Part shown: in pieces, positions 55,233 to 64,000 of the stretch | How positions within the stretch are numbered: the first letter of the stretch is position 1 | Layout: the number at the start of each line of letters is the position of its first letter | NCBI GenBank assembly: GCA_001296005.1 | Contig: LJHR01000005.1 | Coordinates: forward strand, 372,001 to 436,000 | DNA from: an alpha proteobacterium AAP38 | Lineage (GTDB): Bacteria > Pseudomonadota > Alphaproteobacteria > Azospirillales > Azospirillaceae | DNA: 64,000 nt | Direction of reading: 5' to 3' | Notes under the pieces: generated by a model | The model's database searches: none | Told to the model about the DNA's origin: nothing | The model's input: the letters and a program-made list of their open reading frames with translations, nothing else | Program-made: the position numbers and the translations under genes

Positions 55233-57704
55233 TCAGGGCAGCCGGTCCACCATCAATGTTTCAATCCGGGCCTCGTTCACCGGGCCGGTCATGCCGCCGG
55301 GCCCGCTATAGCTGGCATTGGTGGAAAGCGCGCTCATATTGAAGAAATCCTCGATACTGGCCCGGTAACGACCGGCAGGCAGATCGAAGATGGCGCGGGT
55401 GGAACTGCGGGTGGAATAGCGATCCCCCTCTGGATCGATATGTGGCATCTGCAAAATGGCGCTGTACCGCTTGCCCGCCTCATCCACCAGGACCAGCCGT
55501 TTGACGGCATTGGTCACACCGGTATTCACGGCGTAGGTCCGGTTATCGTAGGTCGTGGCCAGGGCGTACCGCCCGCCACTCCCCACAACGACCTGCCCAA
55601 GGTCCAGCGTCTGGCCCAGCCGGGCCATTTTACCCACCGCAATCGTCTGTGCCGCTTCTCCACGCAAGCAGACCGGTGCCGATGGCTGTGATGCGATGTT
55701 GGTCGAAACATGCACCGCCACAATGGAATAGCAGGCGGTCATCGCCGGGGGCGGCGGTGCCTTGTCCGTCCAGCCGGACCCTGCAACACCGTCGGCAACC
55801 AGCACGCCATCACGCAGCACGCGGTACCGTAGCAGGGTCTTGTCCTTGGTCGGTCCGAAATCCAGGGCGACACTGTCCATGGTCCGCCTGGCGCCGGAAA
55901 TGCCGGGTGTCCAGGGCATGAAGGCCCGCGGCTCCAGATGACTGACCGGGTCGATTGCGGGGACCATGGTTACCCTGCTGTCCGACATCTGCGCCGTGCC
56001 GAACCGGACCTCAATCCGGTTGCGGCTGGCCGTCAATTGTTCGGGATGGATCGGACCGGTCACGGCGGTACCGTTTAGGGTGATGCTCGCCACGGGATAG
56101 ATACCGCCCGCCGCCGCCTTGGCAGGCAGGATCAGCGCGATTTCCACCGGCTTGCCCGCAAAGGACAGGCCGCCCAGCACCGCCTCGGGCTTAGTGAACT
56201 GGGCACGGGTCGCAGTTGTCAGATAGGGCGCGATACGCACACCGCCGGCACCCGGCTGCCAGCCGAAGACATCCTGAACCACGGCACCGTAATAAGCGCC
56301 GACAGACCAGAGCTGACGGCGGGAATTGATCTCAGGCCCGTCATCAAACTGTGCCCGCCCCGTCAGCCATTCCAGATTCTCCATGTTGGAGAGGTGCATG
56401 GCGGCGGCCCTTTCCAGTGCTGCAAGCCCCTGGTCGACCGCGGCCACATGGCCGGCGGCGATGGCGGCGCGCACTGCATAGGCCGTGACGAATGGCCATT
56501 GCGCACGGTTGTGATAGACAAACTCCCCCGGTGCCTGTGGCCACACGACCGAAGGACCGAACGGGGCGAAGGGATACCGATCAAATATCGACCTGGCCTT
56601 TTCCAGCGATGCCACACCCGACAGGACGGCAAGCGCATTGCCCAGCAGATCGTATTTCTCGATCCGGGCCGGCGTCGGCTCCGCCATTGTAAAGGTGGCG
56701 TACATCCCTGCCCGCGTGTCCCAGAACGTCGCATCAATGGCCTTGGTCAGGTCATCCGCCCAGCCATCATACCGGGCTGCCGTCGCCCCATCCCCCAGTT
56801 CCTTGGCCAGCCGGGCGGCAAGACGCAGGGCACGGTATTGCAGGACGTTGGTGGACAGGGCCTTGGATTGAGCCATTGCCGGTAGATGTTCACGGACCCA
56901 GGGGGCGTAGGTCTGTTCGCGCCAGTCCAAGAAGCTGTGTTCACCACCGTAAAGGCCGTTGGCTGCGTCAAACGCCGCGACACGGTCCGCCTCCACAGTG
57001 CCGCGCAGCGCTTCATAGGCCTTGCGCGCGAAATCGGCACGGGCGCTGCCCTGCAGGTTGGCCAGCGTCGCCTCTGCCCCCAGCGCCCAGGTGGTGCGGT
57101 CAGTGCTGATCGGCCAGGAACCGCCCGAGCCTGTATCCTGTACGATCTGCGTGGACCCAGGGGGAAGTTCGGCGGGCACCGTCACGCCCGCCCGGAAACT
57201 GCCGGTCTTGAACAACAGACTGTCCACCGCGCGGACCGGGTCCAGCCCCGCCAGCCCCAGGTCCAGCGCGTAGGACAGGTCCCGCGTCCAGACATAGTTC
57301 CATTTCTCGCCCGTCTCGAAACAGTTGCAGGCGATGGGCTGCCCACCATTATAGGCCCCGTCCTTGATCGAACTGACACTGGCCTGGGCGGCATCGTCCA
57401 CCGACTGCGCGAACAGCGCGTCGAACAGCAGATTGCCGGTCAGGGTGTAGGCACCGCGCTCCGTGATATCGCGCGTGCCGGGGGTATTGTCGCGTTGTGG
57501 TGCGCTGCTGGTCAGGTGGAACTGCCGCGTTCCCGGCTGCCCCTTGGCCTCCACCGTCACCCGTGCAGGCTTGGCCCCTGGCTCCAGCGCATAGGGCCGA
57601 AAGCTCCGCGTTTCCGACGCATGGGCCGCCTGTCCGGCATCCAGTGCCAGGATCGACAGGCTGGCAGCGGTAGCCAGTAGCAGCAGGCGCGGAGACGGGG
57701 GCAT
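55233..57704 (-). CDS. Six-hairpin (alpha/alpha toroid) glycosidase, exported
   Basis: This 823-residue exported protein has a signal peptide at about 1-29. Its long (alpha/alpha)6-type domain resembles GH63/GH37-like or MGH1-like glucosidases, with WNYVWTRDLSYALDL, DWREQTYAPW, GPSVVWPQAPGEFVYHNRAQWPF and the C-terminal SVGAYYG-VVQDVFGW. The acidic residues in WTRD and DWRE are candidate catalytic ones. C-terminal beta-domains follow from about 560. I do not know its exact substrate; an alpha- or beta-linked glucoside or rhamnoside is possible. ATG 57704 has a strong GGAGGAACC site. A LacI gene lies 96 bases upstream on the same strand and a GCAATTGCA palindrome lies in the gap. Confidence 0.72.
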   Translation of the reverse strand: MPPSPRLLLLATAASLSILALDAGQAAHASETRSFRPYALEPGAKPARVTVEAKGQPGTRQFHLTSSAPQRDNTPGTRDITERGAYTLTGNLLFDALFAQSVDDAAQASVSSIKDGAYNGGQPIACNCFETGEKWNYVWTRDLSYALDLGLAGLDPVRAVDSLLFKTGSFRAGVTVPAELPPGSTQIVQDTGSGGSWPISTDRTTWALGAEATLANLQGSARADFARKAYEALRGTVEADRVAAFDAANGLYGGEHSFLDWREQTYAPWVREHLPAMAQSKALSTNVLQYRALRLAARLAKELGDGATAARYDGWADDLTKAIDATFWDTRAGMYATFTMAEPTPARIEKYDLLGNALAVLSGVASLEKARSIFDRYPFAPFGPSVVWPQAPGEFVYHNRAQWPFVTAYAVRAAIAAGHVAAVDQGLAALERAAAMHLSNMENLEWLTGRAQFDDGPEINSRRQLWSVGAYYGAVVQDVFGWQPGAGGVRIAPYLTTATRAQFTKPEAVLGGLSFAGKPVEIALILPAKAAAGGIYPVASITLNGTAVTGPIHPEQLTASRNRIEVRFGTAQMSDSRVTMVPAIDPVSHLEPRAFMPWTPGISGARRTMDSVALDFGPTKDKTLLRYRVLRDGVLVADGVAGSGWTDKAPPPPAMTACYSIVAVHVSTNIASQPSAPVCLRGEAAQTIAVGKMARLGQTLDLGQVVVGSGGRYALATTYDNRTYAVNTGVTNAVKRLVLVDEAGKRYSAILQMPHIDPEGDRYSTRSSTRAIFDLPAGRYRASIEDFFNMSALSTNASYSGPGGMTGPVNEARIETLMVDRLP

Positions 57705-57772
57705 GGTTCCTCCAACTGTCATGATGGTTCTTGGGCGGCTCAGCCTTTCCGTGAAGGTGGGGTGAGGGGCAC

Positions 57773-57782
57773 TGCAATTGCA
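57773..57782. promoter_or_regulatory. Candidate LacI operator 1 (TGCAATTGCA)
   Basis: A perfect 10-bp palindrome sits between the LacI stop and the glycosidase start. The core GCAATTGCAA recurs at 58888-58897, in front of the LacI gene. Confidence 0.6.
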
Positions 57783-57800
57783 ACAAATAATCTGCAAAAA

Positions 57801-58823
57801 TCAGGCGCCGCAGGATTCCCGGACGATTAGATCGGTGCTTAGCCGTTCCGACATGGCTTGGTCGCCGGCCAGCAGGCGAAGCAGCTTGGCCACCAGCAAA
57901 CGCCCGGCCTTGGCAGTATCCTGGCGGATCGTGGTCAGGGCCGGGTGGGCATGGGCCGCAATTTCGATATCGTCATAGCCAACGATGGCGACGTCGTGCG
58001 GTACGGACAGGCCACGCCGGTTCAGCGCGCGAACGGCACCGATGGCGACCAGATCGCTGACCGCCACGATGGCATCAAATGCGACCCCCTGATCCAACAG
58101 ATCATCCACCGCCTCCACCGCCGCATCGGGCACCAGACGGCAGCGCCGGTGCAGGCTGGGGTCGGGTGCCAAGCCCACCTCCTGCAACGCGTTCACATAG
58201 CCTTGATGACGCTGTGAAAGTTCGATCGTAAGGGTTTCGCCCAGAAAGGCGATGCGTTTGCGCCCCAATCGGGCCAGATGGAGCGCGGCGCGATGTCCAC
58301 CCCGGACATTGTCACTGCCGACGGAGCAATAGTCCTGATCAGGTGCTGTCGCACCCCAGACCACGAAGCGCCGGCCATCGCGGAACAGGCGGTTCAACGC
58401 CTCGTGCAACTGGCTCTGACCCAGGAAGATCATCCCGTCGGCCTGGCTGCTGTCGAGCAGATCGGCTAGCCCGCGCTGATCAACCGGGGTGGCATGGCCG
58501 ATGGTCAGGTCCAGCCCCCGTTCGCGCATAGCAAGGCTGATCCCGCCGACCAGACCCAGGCTGAACGGGTCCACCGATTGCCCGCCGGCATGGGCCGGTG
58601 GCATCACCACCATCACGGATGGCCGGTCGCCGCCTGTCGTCTGCCGTGCGCGGCGAGGGGGCGCGTCATACTGCGCCGCCTCGGCCAGTTCACGGATACG
58701 GCGGCGGGTTTCGGCATTCACGGCACTGCTGCCGCTCAATGCCCGCGATACTGTGGAAACCGACACGCCGGCCTGCCGGGCGATATCCTGTAGCCGTGAA
58801 GCGCGCGCCTTCACATCATCCAT
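57801..58823 (-). CDS. LacI-family transcriptional regulator
   Basis: This 340-residue LacI/GalR regulator has its helix-turn-helix at about 9-30 (RLQDIARQAGVSVSTVSRAL), a hinge region around 45-60 and a sensor domain to the C-terminus (IVGYDDIEIAAHAHPALTTI). It lies just upstream of the glycosidase gene and both control regions hold a GCAATTGCAA element, so it likely represses the glycosidase and itself. ATG 58823 places the DNA-binding domain near the N-terminus; an ATG at 58928 would overlap the dehydratase-like gene. Confidence 0.88.
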   Translation of the reverse strand: MDDVKARASRLQDIARQAGVSVSTVSRALSGSSAVNAETRRRIRELAEAAQYDAPPRRARQTTGGDRPSVMVVMPPAHAGGQSVDPFSLGLVGGISLAMRERGLDLTIGHATPVDQRGLADLLDSSQADGMIFLGQSQLHEALNRLFRDGRRFVVWGATAPDQDYCSVGSDNVRGGHRAALHLARLGRKRIAFLGETLTIELSQRHQGYVNALQEVGLAPDPSLHRRCRLVPDAAVEAVDDLLDQGVAFDAIVAVSDLVAIGAVRALNRRGLSVPHDVAIVGYDDIEIAAHAHPALTTIRQDTAKAGRLLVAKLLRLLAGDQAMSERLSTDLIVRESCGA

Positions 58824-58887
58824 GCCGCAAGTCTGCCCCGTATCCGCCGAAGGAATGGTTCCCTTCTGCCTGACATCAAGGCTTGCG

Positions 58888-58897
58888 GCAATTGCAA
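58888..58897. promoter_or_regulatory. Candidate LacI operator 2 (GCAATTGCAA)
   Basis: This element, with palindromic core GCAATTGC, lies between the dehydratase-like gene stop and the LacI start. It matches the site at 57773, consistent with autoregulation. Confidence 0.55.
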
Positions 58898-58908
58898 TAA
58901 CAGGTGGG

Positions 58909-61275
58909 TTAAGTCTGAAGCCCCTCAATAAACCGGGTCACGGCACTGTCGACGGCGGCTGCATCCGCACTTTCCTGATTGTAGTTATCCAGGTCCAGGC
59001 GCAGCACAGGGATGCCCGCTTCCTCCAACGCCCGCAGCACAAACGGATCGGCGTCGGTCAGGGCGACAGCCCCGTGGACCCCATGGATGCGGGCATCGCG
59101 CACATGCCAAGCCCCGGCCCAGGTGGGCATGCGCAATTCATCGCCCATGGTAACGAAACGGGCCGCCAGGGCCCGCATGGGATCACGCCCCCGGTCGTGA
59201 TGGCGGATATAACCGTCGGCGGCCAACGACAGATACATGGAGCAGACGAAGACTGCGCCATGGCTTTCCTCCCAGCGCTGGTAAAAGGCCATGTCGCTCC
59301 ACAGGCCACGCCCCACCCACATCAGGCGCACACGCTCATTGGGGCAGGCAGCGTCACCCGCCGCCGCGCGGGCGGCCACTTCCTCATACAGCGCCTTCGC
59401 GGCATCGCGGGCCCAGACAGAGCCGCGATGCCATTGCGGCACCATAGTGGCGGGCATCGTATCGACGATGCTGACTGGGGCGGGGTGTGTGGCGGCGATC
59501 AGATCGCGGGTGCGGCGGTAGCATTCCTCCTGCTCATTCACCAGATCCATAACCTCTGCGAAACGGGCAGGATCGAACTGCTTGCCTGTCGCCGTTTCCA
59601 GCCGCGCCACATGGGCACGCAATTCCCCTTCCATCAGGTCCAGGCGTTCCGGTTCCAGATGCTGATCCCAATCGCCGGGAAGGTCTTCCCACCAATCGGT
59701 GGGGATCTGCCAGCGGCTGTCGAAACTGCGCTGATAAAGGTACAGGTCGGCCCCCGTCTCCATCGCCCAATGGCGGAAAATACGGGCGGTTGCATCCGTA
59801 CCAGTCACGGCGGCCAGGAAATCCGGCTTTGGCAGACCGCCCCAGGGGGCGTTTTCCATGTCATCATCGAATGCCGCTGCCAGCCCCTGCGCGCTGTAAG
59901 CCTCCACATCCGCCGGATAGTCACGGTCGCGCAACAGGCCGAAATAGCGACCCGATTGCTGTTTTGCGGCCACGATTGAGGCCCACCATTGGTTCACGAC
60001 GAAGGGAATATCCATGGCGCGCAGGATTTCCTGCGGCGCATTGGCATTGACGACCGCCAGCGGCGCGCCCGCCGCCACCTGTTCACGCAGGCCCGCGAAC
60101 CAGTCCCGCTGGAACTGCCCGAAGCTGGCTACAGCGGACAGCGATTTGCGGCTGCGCGTCGGGGGCTTCAGGGCCGCGCGTCCCCCACCGGCGCGGGCGG
60201 GTGACGGGGATGGCGCCAGGGGTGCTGGTGTTGGCTGTGCCATGGGATCGGCCAGGAATGCGGCCAGGGCAGCGGGCATTTCCCCGCTGCCATCCCAGGT
60301 CACGGCCAAGAAGGGTAGGCCGGCAGCGGCGCAGGCGGCACGCAACGGCTTCACATCCCAGGGGGCGGCCTCGTCACCGGGGCGCATGGTGTGCAGCAGG
60401 GCCGTTGCACCCGCAACCCTCGCGGCGGCGATAAGGGCGTTGGGATCATCGGGGCTGCGGCGGGCCAATGGCGTGACGCCACCGCACCAGGGGCGGCCCC
60501 AATCCTGTGCCTCGCCCACCACCATCGCACCTGATGCTTCCAAGCGATCATAAAGCCGGAAATCCTCCTGTGTGCTGCCGGTCAGGAACAGGGTCCGGAC
60601 GGCAACAACCGGCGGCGGCCGATCGCCCAGCAGGGCCGACAGAGATGCTTCCACCTGTTCCGGCGGCAGGATGGCGGCGGCGGCCACGATCCGTACAGCC
60701 TCCGCACCCGTCAGCTGTCCCGTCCGGCGCAGGCCCAAGGCCTGTGCCAATAGCACCCGCAGCCGGGCCTCGTCCTTCTCCGTCTGTGCCACATCGCCCA
60801 AGGGCGTGCCCAGGCTGGTCAGCCATTCCCGCAATTGTGTGAAACGGACGGCATTATATCGGGCTGCCTGTTCCCCACCGCCATGCAGCAGGTCCAGGAA
60901 ATGCACCGGCCCCAGACGCTTCCCTGCCTCCCGCGCCAGTTCGCGCAGGGCGGCGAAGACCTGCGGCTGTTCATTATCGGCACTGGTGATCAGGACCGGA
61001 TCAGGTTTGGCACCGTCCCCCACCAGTTGTTCCAGCAGCGACTTGCCCCGCACCGATAGGCCGGCCCCGCCCATCAGCGCATCCATCATCGGCGTCGGCG
61101 CCGTCGTTGGCACCAGCCGGACGGGCAGCAGCCCCGCCGCCCGCACTAAGGCGCGGGAACCATCCACGCCCAGCAGCCGCAGGGGGCGATATCCCTGACC
61201 TCGCAGCGCCTCAAGCGTTCCGGCGGGATCATCGGCGGCGGTCAGCAGCGGGGCCAGGGTGGGATGGCGGGCCAT
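58909..61275 (-). CDS. Fused 2-hydroxyacyl-CoA dehydratase-like protein lacking cluster cysteines
   Basis: This 788-residue protein reads as two 2-hydroxyacyl-CoA dehydratase (HgdA/HgdB, BcrB/BcrC) subunits joined by a Pro/Ala-rich linker (about 345-385). The halves are about 1-345 and 385-788; each ends with the AGLPFLAV/AGIPVLRL strand typical of the fold. Classical members bind one [4Fe-4S] cluster per subunit through conserved cysteines. Here the usual positions hold other residues (for example YPADVEAY at 453-460, VTGTDAT at 490-496 and LTDADPF at 739-745). Only five scattered cysteines remain: C264, C315, C585, C644 and C678. No activator (HgdC) gene is visible. Its ATG overlaps the stop of the upstream CoA-transferase gene (TGATG). 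It may dehydrate or otherwise rearrange a CoA thioester by a different route. The family call is by pattern recall. Confidence 0.65.
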   Translation of the reverse strand: MARHPTLAPLLTAADDPAGTLEALRGQGYRPLRLLGVDGSRALVRAAGLLPVRLVPTTAPTPMMDALMGGAGLSVRGKSLLEQLVGDGAKPDPVLITSADNEQPQVFAALRELAREAGKRLGPVHFLDLLHGGGEQAARYNAVRFTQLREWLTSLGTPLGDVAQTEKDEARLRVLLAQALGLRRTGQLTGAEAVRIVAAAAILPPEQVEASLSALLGDRPPPVVAVRTLFLTGSTQEDFRLYDRLEASGAMVVGEAQDWGRPWCGGVTPLARRSPDDPNALIAAARVAGATALLHTMRPGDEAAPWDVKPLRAACAAAGLPFLAVTWDGSGEMPAALAAFLADPMAQPTPAPLAPSPSPARAGGGRAALKPPTRSRKSLSAVASFGQFQRDWFAGLREQVAAGAPLAVVNANAPQEILRAMDIPFVVNQWWASIVAAKQQSGRYFGLLRDRDYPADVEAYSAQGLAAAFDDDMENAPWGGLPKPDFLAAVTGTDATARIFRHWAMETGADLYLYQRSFDSRWQIPTDWWEDLPGDWDQHLEPERLDLMEGELRAHVARLETATGKQFDPARFAEVMDLVNEQEECYRRTRDLIAATHPAPVSIVDTMPATMVPQWHRGSVWARDAAKALYEEVAARAAAGDAACPNERVRLMWVGRGLWSDMAFYQRWEESHGAVFVCSMYLSLAADGYIRHHDRGRDPMRALAARFVTMGDELRMPTWAGAWHVRDARIHGVHGAVALTDADPFVLRALEEAGIPVLRLDLDNYNQESADAAAVDSAVTRFIEGLQT

Positions 61276-62528
61276 CAGATCACCCCTTGCCGCTTCAGGC
61301 TGTCCAGCTGTTCGGCGCTGTACCCTGTCAGGCGGGCATAGACATCGCCATTATGCTCCCCGATGGCCACCGGCAGCACGGGATCGAACCCGGTACGCGC
61401 GCCGGAGAACAGGATGGGGATGCCCGCCGTGCGAAGGTCGATGTCGGAGCTGTAGCTGGGATGGGCGATGGGCATGGTCTCATTGCGGGCCATCACCCGC
61501 GGATCGACCAGCGCATCCTCCGGATGGCGCACAGGCGCCACGGGCACGCCTTGTGCCTCCAGCGCTGCCACCACATCGACCACCGGCAATTGCTTTGACC
61601 AGGCGTTGATCCGCGCCTCCAGTTCCGTGGCGTTGGCCACGCGGGCGTCGCGGGTGGCGAATTGCGGGTGCTGGAGCAGTTCCACCTGTCCCATGGCGCG
61701 GAACAGGCCGGCGGCCAGCTTGTCATGCACGGCCACCAGCGCGATATAGCCGTCGGCGCATTCGAACACGCCGAAGGGCGACAGGCGCTGCACCGTCAGG
61801 CCTGTGCGCGACGGCATGCCGGCGGCGGCCATGGCCGACCAGTTCTCAATGGCCACGAAAGAGGTCAGCGCCCCCAGCATCGAAACGTCGATATGTTGCC
61901 CCACCCCGGTGCGGTGCCTCTGTTCCAGTGCCGCCAAGATACCGATGACCGCAAAGACGGGGGCCAGCATGTCGGCCATGGGCACGCCCATGCGCACCGG
62001 CGGTTCCCCCGGCGCGCCGGATGTGTACATGGCGCCCGACAGTGCCTGGATGATCACATCCATGGCCTTGCCGCCTTCTGACCCATTGGCACCAAAGCCG
62101 GAAAGGGAGCAATAGATAACGCGCGGATTGGCGGATTTGGCGGCCTCATAACCCACACCCAGCCGGTCGGCGGTGCCGCTGGTGAAATTCTCCACGACAA
62201 TGTCACAGCCTTTCACCAGATCAGCGAACACCGCCTTGGCGTCCGGATGCTTCAGGTTCAGGCTGATGCCATGCTTGCCGCGTGCGCGGGTCAGGTGGGA
62301 AATGGAGATATCGTCTGCATGCCGGCGTTCCACCACCACCCCGTCACGTCCGACATAGGGGCTGTTCTCCCGTGCCAGATCGCCACCGATCGGGTCCTCC
62401 AGCTTGATCACTTCGGCCCCCAGTCCCGCCAGCAACAGGGTGGCGTAAGGCCCCGCCAGGGCGCGGGTCAGGTCAAGGACGCGCAGTCCTTCCAGGGGAC
62501 GCTGCTGGCTGTTCTCGGTCGTGCTCAT
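61275..62528 (-). CDS. Class III CoA-transferase (CaiB/BaiF family)
   Basis: This 417-residue family III CoA-transferase begins PLEGLRVLDLTRALAGPYAT and contains ADIVVENF-type and GxVGQHIDVSM-type blocks. The expected catalytic aspartate is D186 in VPMADMLAP. These enzymes move CoA between carboxylic acids by a ternary-complex mechanism. It sits in a minus-strand operon with two more family members and the dehydratase-like gene, with 1-4 base overlaps throughout. It probably activates the acid substrate of this pathway. Confidence 0.92.
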   Translation of the reverse strand: MSTTENSQQRPLEGLRVLDLTRALAGPYATLLLAGLGAEVIKLEDPIGGDLARENSPYVGRDGVVVERRHADDISISHLTRARGKHGISLNLKHPDAKAVFADLVKGCDIVVENFTSGTADRLGVGYEAAKSANPRVIYCSLSGFGANGSEGGKAMDVIIQALSGAMYTSGAPGEPPVRMGVPMADMLAPVFAVIGILAALEQRHRTGVGQHIDVSMLGALTSFVAIENWSAMAAAGMPSRTGLTVQRLSPFGVFECADGYIALVAVHDKLAAGLFRAMGQVELLQHPQFATRDARVANATELEARINAWSKQLPVVDVVAALEAQGVPVAPVRHPEDALVDPRVMARNETMPIAHPSYSSDIDLRTAGIPILFSGARTGFDPVLPVAIGEHNGDVYARLTGYSAEQLDSLKRQGVI

Positions 62529-63724
62529 GCTCGTGATCCTTGACGGGCGGACAGGGCGCCCTTGTCGCGCAGGGACTGGATGTCGGTTTGGGAAAGGCCG
62601 ATGCCGGCCAGGATGGTGTCGCTGTCGCCACCCGCCGGGGCCGCCGGTCGCGGCGCGGCGGCGGGAGTATCGGACAGGCGGATGGGCAGGCCGATATGCG
62701 GCGCGGTGCCGCCGCCGGGCAGCGGCACCTCGAACACCATGCCGCGCGCCCGGTTATGCGGGTCGGACAGGGCGTTGGGCAGGTCATGCACGGCTGCGAA
62801 CTGCGTATCCGCCGCCGCCAGGATGTCCAGCCATTCGGCCAGGGTCTTGGAGCGGAAGATGGCGGCCAGGGCGTCCGCGATTTCCCCCCGGCAGCTGACA
62901 TCCATCTGCAAGGCGGCGAAGTCCGGACGGCCCACGGCCACGCAGAAACGCTGCCAATAGCGGGGTTCCATGTCGGTGGTAGTGATGAAGCGCCCGTCCG
63001 CCGTTTCCCAAATGCCGCTGTCCGCACGGCGCTTGGCACGCCCCGGCACCTTCGACAGGTCGGGATTGCGGGAGATCGTGCTAGCGATCAGGGCCAGGGA
63101 GGCATCGGACATGGCGACATCGACATGCTGGCCCCGGCCCGTCACACCGCGCGCAATGATCGCGGACAGGATGCCGATGACGGCGTTCGAACCGCTCAAC
63201 AGATCGGCCACGGGCACGCCGGGGAAGCTGGGCTTGACCGGGTCTTCGCCGATGCGTGACAGGGCGCCGGCAATCGCCAGGGCCACCGGATCATGCCCCG
63301 GCTTGTCCCGGTATGGTCCTGTCTGTCCGCAAAGCGTGACCGACGCATAGACCAGCCTTGGGTTCAGTTCCAGCATGGCGGCGGCACCGTACCCCATGCT
63401 CTCCATCACGCCGGGCCGATAATCCTCCACCAATATGTCGGCCTTCGCCACCAGCGCCTCGATCACTGTTCGTGCATCTTCATGACCAGGATCGATGACC
63501 AGGCTGCGCTTGTTGCGGGCATAGATGTCGCGGGCACGCAAGTCTGCGCGGGCGTTCGCATCCAGCTTGTCCCAGCCGAAAACCTGCGCCTGTTTCGCCA
63601 ACTCGCGTGGATTCTCCACGCGGATGATATCGGCGCCCAGATTGCCCAGCATCCAGGTGCAGTAAGGGCCGGGCAAGAACTTGGAGAAATCGATGACCGT
63701 CAGGCCGGAAAGCGGACCATTCAT
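62525..63724 (-). CDS. Class III CoA-transferase (CaiB/BaiF family)
   Basis: This 399-residue family III CoA-transferase begins LSGLTVIDFSKFLPGPYCTW, with ADILVEDYRPGVMESMG at about 95-111 and catalytic D174 in VPVADLLSG. Its C-terminus carries an extra ~45-residue helical segment after the usual end. The ATG overlaps the stop of the partial gene at the window edge, and its own stop overlaps the start of the next gene by four bases. Two or more divergent copies in one operon suggest they act as heteromers or on successive substrates. Confidence 0.92.
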   Translation of the reverse strand: MNGPLSGLTVIDFSKFLPGPYCTWMLGNLGADIIRVENPRELAKQAQVFGWDKLDANARADLRARDIYARNKRSLVIDPGHEDARTVIEALVAKADILVEDYRPGVMESMGYGAAAMLELNPRLVYASVTLCGQTGPYRDKPGHDPVALAIAGALSRIGEDPVKPSFPGVPVADLLSGSNAVIGILSAIIARGVTGRGQHVDVAMSDASLALIASTISRNPDLSKVPGRAKRRADSGIWETADGRFITTTDMEPRYWQRFCVAVGRPDFAALQMDVSCRGEIADALAAIFRSKTLAEWLDILAAADTQFAAVHDLPNALSDPHNRARGMVFEVPLPGGGTAPHIGLPIRLSDTPAAAPRPAAPAGGDSDTILAGIGLSQTDIQSLRDKGALSARQGSRA

Positions 63725-64000
63725 CGCGCGTCCTCCCGGTTGGTACGGAACAGGGGGCCGGGCACCCGGATGGTGCGGCCCGACACGGGATCGTCGAAGG
63801 GGACGAAGGCGCTACGCGCCCTGTGATGGGCGCTGTTCAACACGTCTTGTGGTTCATCGATGGCCGACAGGCCCATGCCGTGGCGGTTGGATTGGTCGGC
63901 CAGGAAGGCGCGGGTCTTGGTGGCGAAGAACGCGCCTACCACCTTCTCCCACTCTTTCAGGGTTTCCTGCGGCAGATCGGCGACCAGGATATTCTCCCAC
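63721..64000 (-). CDS. Class III CoA-transferase, C-terminal part (runs off window)
   Basis: The last 92 residues of an open frame enter from the right edge. KTRAFLADQSNRHGMGLSAI, then DVLNSAHHRAR and GRTIRVPGPLFR, match the C-terminal region of CaiB/BaiF CoA-transferases. Its stop overlaps the ATG of the next gene (ATGA). It is therefore the first visible, and possibly not the first, gene of the CoA-transferase/dehydratase operon. Confidence 0.75.
   Translation of the reverse strand, partial: WENILVADLPQETLKEWEKVVGAFFATKTRAFLADQSNRHGMGLSAIDEPQDVLNSAHHRARSAFVPFDDPVSGRTIRVPGPLFRTNREDAR

Follow-up and report, generated by a model that had tools for sequence, protein, structure and literature searches.

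A fused HGD-D-like protein without iron-sulfur ligands in a class III CoA-transferase operon of an alphaproteobacterium

The DNA considered here is a stretch of 64,000 nucleotides, called the window below, which spans bases 372001-436000 of contig 45 in the 5.78 Mb genome of the alphaproteobacterium AAP38; the nearest named relatives at the locus belong to Niveispirillum, a genus of the Azospirillaceae in the Alphaproteobacteria, and include N. irakense DSM 11586. Close to the end of the window, a reverse-strand open reading frame of 788 amino acids (aa) encodes a fused protein resembling component D of the 2-hydroxyacyl-coenzyme A (CoA) dehydratases (HGD-D, Pfam family PF06050). It adjoins genes for class III CoA-transferases and, judged from its sequence, is a new variant within a known fold family. 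The dehydratases are described in passages of PMC8473912 and PMC11574389 as carrying one cluster per subunit, held by three cysteines, and as requiring an ATP-driven activator, and a passage of PMC8473912 calls them very oxygen-sensitive. The parts of the fused protein are as follows.

58909..61275, reverse strand: fused HGD-D-like protein, 788 aa, beta half, linker and alpha half (open reading frame, PF06050, alignments)
60241..61275, reverse strand: beta-like half, residues about 1-345; 0/5 classical beta cysteine columns hold Cys (profile comparison, alignment)
60160..60240, reverse strand: Pro/Ala/Gly-rich linker, residues about 346-372 (sequence, alignment)
58909..60159, reverse strand: alpha-like half, residues 373-788; E458, T493 and a deletion at the ligand columns, Q429 at the Glu column (PF06050, alignment)
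59344..59346, reverse strand: codon of C644 (alignment of alpha rows)

Two subunits in one protein, and their relatives

An earlier note on this DNA had proposed a double-length HGD-like protein in an apparently aerobic, plant-associated bacterium, and for the protein both the length and the family were borne out: PF06050 matches the whole protein with an E-value of 1.5e-45, its best stretch being residues 412-784 in the C-terminal half. The N-terminal half alone reaches 24.3 and 25.9 bits, under the Pfam cut-off of 28.4 bits, and belongs to HGD-D only by profile comparison and through its relatives. A beta profile of nine rows, the window's N-terminal half among them, was matched by hhalign to the beta subunits of cysteine-bearing relatives at 99.2% (E 9.7e-20), in contrast to 0.9% for their alpha subunits, and the alpha profile was matched to those alpha subunits at 99.6% (E 9.1e-25). 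Single beta rows from Rhizobium (3.5e-44), genome G095 (2.6e-28) and Novosphingobium EMRT-2 (5.2e-7) pass the PF06050 cut-off; besides the window's row, two others match below it and two have no match at E 0.01. On these Pfam matches and profile comparisons the halves are assigned to beta and alpha, which follow one another as the neighbouring genes do in split relatives (loci L020, L041, L075, L078 and L079), and the alignments identify the window protein as a fusion of the two subunits of an HGD-D-type component D.

Relatives, whose genomes and loci carry G and L labels, were searched for, taking either the protein itself or alignments of alpha as query, in genomes of the window's own family, class and phylum and of three orders, the genome-contig scan reaching close relatives only, and the clade proved rare. 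Eight of 82 genomes of the family match (six with a real copy, one with a 58-aa remnant containing a stop, one weakly), as do 10 of 385 in the class (four of the clade and six cysteine-bearing relatives) and 5 of 398 in the phylum, namely four of the clade and the cysteine-bearing G919, all five in the same class. The orders of G403, G095 and G1037 gave 12/296, 1/5 and 4/195 matching genomes, respectively. Among 72,556 plasmid records seven match, from Novosphingobium, Croceicoccus and Rhizobium, and no relative was found in the viral contigs scanned.

The counts below come from an alignment of 32 clade alphas with seven cysteine-bearing alphaproteobacterial controls. It contains near-copy rows (EMRT-2 with G636, ES2-1 with THN1), and G072, in which a contig break interrupts the gene, is included among the fused forms. 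Beta counts cover 26 of the 32 loci, since G072, G607, G679, G555, G714 and G053, whose contigs are broken or loci short, supply none, and the term sphingomonad is applied to G genomes by their closeness to named plasmids. In a tree built without the ligand columns, all 32 clade rows group together (100/100), and within them the eight fused rows make up a single subgroup (100/100), for which one fusion event is needed. Two genomes, G671 and G1222 (L078, L093), each hold a second, divergent alpha-beta copy.

Cluster ligands, activator and selection

The alpha ligand columns were set as those of BzdO Cys95, Cys128 and Cys380, and the acid/base column as that of BzdO Glu65, residues to which a passage of PMC11971306 gives these roles. 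All three cysteines and the Glu are present in 7/7 control alphas. The ligand positions of HadB, which we take to be 84, 117 and 346, agree with the profile alignment of alpha against solved relatives. In the window protein the ligand columns are occupied by E458, T493 and a deletion, so that all three Cys ligands are missing, and the acid/base column by Q429, so that the catalytic Glu is missing as well. The beta half holds S, D, Q, A and D at the five control cysteine columns, all of which are Cys in the seven control betas except the first column in two truncated rows; 24 of 26 clade betas have no Cys at any of the five, G1056 having two and G717 one. The loss of the iron-sulfur ligands, as the earlier note had claimed, is established by sequence comparison, the window protein and 16 other clade members having no Cys at the aligned positions.

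The absence of these cysteines throughout the clade, a further point raised by the note, holds for part of it: 17 of the 32 alphas have none of the three ligands, but 14 have two and one (G095) has three. All eight fused proteins fall among the 17, as do sphingomonad genomes outside the two-ligand subclade (G656, G670, both G671 copies), which came from the search of the order of G403; the 14 two-ligand rows constitute one sphingomonad subclade (support 99/100) with Asn at the third column. The Glu is replaced in 31/32 clade alphas by Gln, Thr, Pro or Ala. Ligand number needs three state changes on the tree, but the approximately unbiased (AU) test does not reject a ligand-less state that arose once (p-AU 0.087; 0.198 for the C644 rows); its groups were picked after seeing the tree, and long branches are present. 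Two individual alphas stand apart: G095 (L041 7665-10027) combines all three ligand cysteines with Gln for the catalytic Glu, a ligand-free beta and a genome without activator, and G1222b keeps the catalytic Glu with no Cys ligands and without C644.

The cysteines of the fused protein lie at 264, 315, 585, 644 and 678, exactly where the note had placed them. Its description of them as scattered fails for C644, a column that is Cys in 16/17 ligand-less alphas and in none of the 14 two-ligand alphas, the three-ligand alpha or the seven controls. Five further residues (W430, W615, W719, Y689 and R706, in fused-protein numbering) do not vary among the 32 clade alphas, whereas most controls have other residues there.

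The retention of C644 might suggest that the protein is still a metalloenzyme, in which C644 with Asp, Glu or His, or the CxxC/CxC cysteines of the two- and three-ligand relatives, would hold another metal or cluster and serve a dehydratase or reductase with a different electron source. In line with this, 14/14 two-ligand alphas and G095 keep the first two ligand cysteines with an extra Cys at +3 and +2, so that at the second column either the ligand Cys or the one two residues on might bind a metal. In the fused proteins, however, C644 is the sole Cys common to all eight alphas, which is too few for a cluster; the relay ligands of beta are lost and no activator was found, and we consider this explanation improbable. 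The L014 alpha (L014:11965-13266) and the 13 other two-ligand alphas show CxxC and CxC at the first two sites before the third-site Asn, an arrangement that is possibly a different metal site.

No activator gene had been seen in the window, and this observation extends to whole genomes. TIGR00241 (CoA-enzyme activase) has no match in the window's own genome, an assembly 100% complete by estimate, or in 23 other clade genomes (0/24 in all; 7/7 and 17/17 without a match), a set that includes G095 and nine two-ligand genomes and to which the genomes of the six plasmid records do not belong. The same model matches in 7/7 control genomes (6/6 and 1/1), near their HGD-D genes. The sole PF01869 match of the own genome lies between a MurQ-like open reading frame and a GntR-like regulator (both named by eye) and looks like an amino-sugar kinase, and on these observations an activator elsewhere in the own genome was rejected as a candidate. 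Pfam and the deposited names of relatives would make the protein an ordinary HGD-D dehydratase, with its activator encoded elsewhere or borrowed; with no TIGR00241 match in the whole genome, a PF01869 protein of kinase appearance and the ligands absent, a point on which this view is already refuted, its probability is very low. The deposited name '2-hydroxyacyl-CoA dehydratase family protein' is likely misleading for these records.

Three observations had been named beforehand as speaking against the earlier note, namely halves outside HGD-D, conserved cluster cysteines in the protein and an activator nearby, and none of them was made. To our knowledge, every characterised enzyme of the HGD-D or benzoyl-CoA reductase type needs iron-sulfur clusters together with an ATP-driven activator, and no cluster-free HGD-D protein has been described; searches of open-licence PMC papers, several of them narrowly worded, turned up none either, which is limited evidence. 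Taken in order, living relatives with three, two and no alpha ligands, and no activator, offer a direct way to test how the scaffold of a radical metalloenzyme changes its role.

In six pairs of four Niveispirillum genomes, the ratio of nonsynonymous to synonymous substitution rates (dN/dS) lies between 0.05 and 0.09 in alpha and between 0.13 and 0.30 in beta, and beta is less conserved than alpha in 325/325 clade pairs. In 10 classical pairs, drawn from five of the seven control pairs, alpha and beta are about equally conserved (e.g. 71 and 70%) or conservation is higher in beta (30 and 37%). On these two comparisons, alpha is a maintained protein under strong purifying selection, and beta appears to have been freed of part of its constraint. 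A gene decaying towards loss is suggested by the sister genome G070, where no more than a 58-aa remnant containing a stop is left, and by 5/11 Niveispirillum genomes without a match, but the open reading frame is intact and long, alpha is under strong purifying selection and the gene order is equal in G068, G069 and the window locus, so that decay is hardly credible; a degrading pseudogene was disfavoured by dN/dS. The remnant itself (L010, G070:C25:176282-176455, 53% identity) is probably a recent loss in that Niveispirillum genome.

The CoA-transferase operon and its surroundings

Upstream, the operon runs past the window, where it was followed in L003, a 20 kb stretch beginning near the window edge (window position = L003 position + 61999).

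61275..62528, reverse strand: CaiB_d, class III CoA-transferase, 417 aa, Asp at the catalytic column (PF02515 7.4e-104)
62525..63724, reverse strand: CaiB_c, class III CoA-transferase, 399 aa, Asp at the catalytic column (PF02515 2.2e-89)
63721..64000, continuing to L003:2720 (L003:1722-2720), reverse strand: CaiB_b, 332 aa, 3' part in the window (PF02515 5.3e-32)
L003:2725-3933, same strand, upstream outside the window: CaiB_a (PF02515 3.6e-91)
L003:3930-5036, same strand, upstream outside the window: DctP
L003:5009-6337, same strand, upstream outside the window: DctM
L003:6303-6800, same strand, upstream outside the window: DctQ
L003:6983-9427, same strand, upstream outside the window: TonB-dependent receptor

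The survey beyond 64 kb that the earlier note had called for thus brought to light the continuation of CaiB_b, CaiB_a, a tripartite ATP-independent periplasmic (TRAP) transporter and a TonB receptor, with no activator among them. The note's three translationally coupled CoA-transferases stand as far as coupling is concerned, with overlaps at the junctions of the CaiB and fused genes (ATGA at 62525-62528, TGATG at 61275), but there are four CoA-transferases, since PF02515 is found in all of CaiB_a to CaiB_d. Gene order is the same in G068, G069 and the window locus.

Asp is the catalytic residue of class III CoA-transferases; the column holds D in CaiB_b, CaiB_c and CaiB_d and G in CaiB_a. The best solved matches of CaiB_a and CaiB_b are the two chains of benzylsuccinate CoA-transferase, BbsEF (9fn0_B, 6.8e-65, and 9fn0_A, 3.7e-17, respectively), and the Asp is missing in the same subunit. 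The locus differs from that system in that no toluene pathway is seen within 20 kb. A further difference is found in the two-ligand sphingomonad loci, where the BbsEF-like pair is one fused protein about 700 aa long, whose first part has Glu and whose second part has Asp (11/11 rows including the query). BbsEF uses succinyl-CoA as donor, according to a passage of PMC10818641.

Gene neighbourhoods were counted by hand in 28 clade loci of 7.6 to 34 kb, two of them in two contig pieces; four further two-ligand loci were too short for this count. CaiB occurs in 27/28 loci (on the other contig piece in G072 and G053), DctM in 21/28, a CapA-like protein in 13/28 and a CocE-like hydrolase in 12/28. 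The relatives' neighbours include esterases, p-hydroxycinnamoyl-CoA hydratase/lyase (HCHL), vanillate-demethylase-like Rieske oxygenases and 4-hydroxybenzoate hydroxylase. With VanA-like Rieske proteins (the window genome's own gene serving as query), HCHL, PobA and tannase/feruloyl esterase as phenolic markers, a marker passed the cut-offs in 13/28 clade loci versus 0/7 control loci of 12-20 kb; among the controls, L081 shows a Rieske match too weak to pass the cut, and L043 encodes a PcaF-like thiolase, which is outside the marker list. NCBIfam cut-offs are exceeded by HCHL of G095 and by PobA of G1056, G403 and G053. Genome-wide, HCHL passes its cut-off in 12/12 clade genomes tested and 1/6 control genomes, which is weak evidence because it is also found in 4/6 Niveispirillum genomes without an intact copy.

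The constancy of the CoA-transferases bears on whether the fused protein is an enzyme at all. It might be a non-catalytic partner, a CoA-ester-binding or scaffold subunit serving the neighbouring transferases: the classical ligands and catalytic Glu are gone, beta evolves fast, and BbsEF-like transferases already include a subunit without the catalytic Asp. The low dN/dS of alpha and the clade-specific invariant Trp, Arg and Tyr look instead like a working site, and in G656 alpha and beta occur without any CoA-transferase match in the 20 kb of the locus; a non-catalytic role is accordingly given a small share of the probability, close to that of the metalloenzyme.

Proposed function and known systems

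The favoured reading, to which we give a probability of about 0.55, is that the protein is an oxygen-tolerant, redox-neutral CoA-ester enzyme taking part in the breakdown of plant-phenolic-derived acids, and that it would no longer perform ATP-driven radical chemistry. Without cluster ligands, relay, activator and Glu, the ketyl-radical route is seemingly closed to it; since alpha is strongly constrained and kept beside CoA-transferases, it would act on CoA esters or else be a binding partner of the transferases. We infer the catalysis and the substrate, and the earlier note's 'cofactor-free' and 'new chemistry' are likewise inferences; the lost ligands and the absent activator are read directly from the genomes. 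An organic acid would be imported by the TRAP transporter and loaded by the class III CoA-transferases with CoA from a donor such as succinyl-CoA. The fused protein would then accommodate this CoA ester in the former active-site channel of alpha and carry out a redox-neutral, oxygen-tolerant reaction by acid-base catalysis, most likely C-O elimination/hydration or C-C cleavage, in which C644 perhaps takes part, and beta would by now have a chiefly structural role. An esterified plant phenolic is the probable source of the acid, an idea prompted by the relatives' neighbouring esterases, HCHL, Rieske oxygenases and 4-hydroxybenzoate hydroxylase, and the operon suggests a pathway not yet characterised, possibly one that breaks down plant phenolics.

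A more specific proposal, clearly less probable than this and offered tentatively, is that a metal-free, ATP-free, oxygen-tolerant CoA-ester lyase was born from the radical iron-sulfur family in alphaproteobacteria. The relay cluster, activator and Glu would have been lost first and the catalytic cluster stepwise (3, 2, 0 ligands), with C644 marking the ligand-less forms, and the lyase would serve an aerobic pathway, so far undescribed, in which aryl- or hydroxy-dicarboxylic acids freed from plant phenolic esters are activated by a BbsEF-like CoA-transferase. Such a substrate is suggested by the BbsEF-like pair, the TRAP transporter and the relatives' esterases and phenolic genes; candidates are eucomic, piscidic or fukiic acid, or lignan-derived benzylsuccinates. 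The hydroxycinnamate genes also raise a rosmarinic-acid (aryllactate) pathway, which is kept as a mere possibility because a dicarboxylate fits better with the BbsEF-like pair.

Several observations weigh against the favoured reading. The CxxC/CxC cysteines kept in the 14 two-ligand alphas may still bind a metal or cluster. At the cut-offs used, 15/28 loci have no phenolic marker, and the longest loci (up to 34 kb, versus 12-20 kb in the controls) are among those that have one; plant-phenolic genes are common in such genomes, as the 4/6 Niveispirillum genomes that have HCHL without an intact copy illustrate. The Rhizobium locus carries MmgE/PrpD in place of phenolic genes, the G1037 locus carries sugar-type genes (by eye), and the BbsEF-like pair is absent from several clade loci, e.g. 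those of G095, G1056, G670 and the Rhizobium plasmid. AlphaFold2 gave unusable models, with a predicted local distance difference test (pLDDT) score of 35.2 for the whole fusion (three alignment rows) and 38.4 for the alpha half (four rows), which do not place Q429, E458, T493 and C644 relative to the active site.

Besides BbsEF, three known systems share parts of this arrangement. HgdAB and HadBC likewise have PF06050 subunits as component D and a class III CoA-transferase in the same operon, FldA and HadA being class III CoA-transferases encoded with HGD-D subunits; unlike them, the window protein has its subunits fused and has no cluster cysteines, catalytic Glu or activator. The phenyllactate dehydratase system FldABCI, which acts on an aromatic hydroxyacyl-CoA, also combines a class III CoA-transferase with two HGD-D subunits, but its activator and clusters have no counterpart at the window locus. 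The core of class I benzoyl-CoA reductases (BzdNO, MbdNO) provides the nearest solved relatives of the alpha profile (MbdO 3.9e-21, BzdO 1.1e-20), with HadB close behind (3.9e-18); it differs in the BzdO-type Cys95/128/380, Glu65 and beta cysteines that the window protein lacks.

The remaining genes lie at the two ends of the operon. Beyond the TonB receptor are a divergent MarR-type gene (by eye) and then a Rieske/VanA_C oxygenase with a ferredoxin-domain reductase. Downstream of the fused gene, the window holds two more genes.

57801..58928, reverse strand: LacI-family regulator (open reading frame list, domain match)
55233-57797, reverse strand: six-hairpin glycosidase-like protein, 854 aa (weak matches to MGH1-like and rhamnosidase 6-hairpin domains)

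The listed 20-base overlap of the LacI gene with the fused gene needs a TTG start, and an ATG 35 codons further in abolishes it. The LacI gene adjoins the fused gene in G068 and G072 and not in G069, so that it is possibly the regulator of the glycosidase rather than of the operon. The glycosidase-like gene lies directly downstream of LacI, and in G068 and G072, too, the two genes come after the fused gene. Additionally, a CapA/PGA_cap-type protein is regularly present in the relatives' cluster (L014:6105-7238 and 12 other loci).

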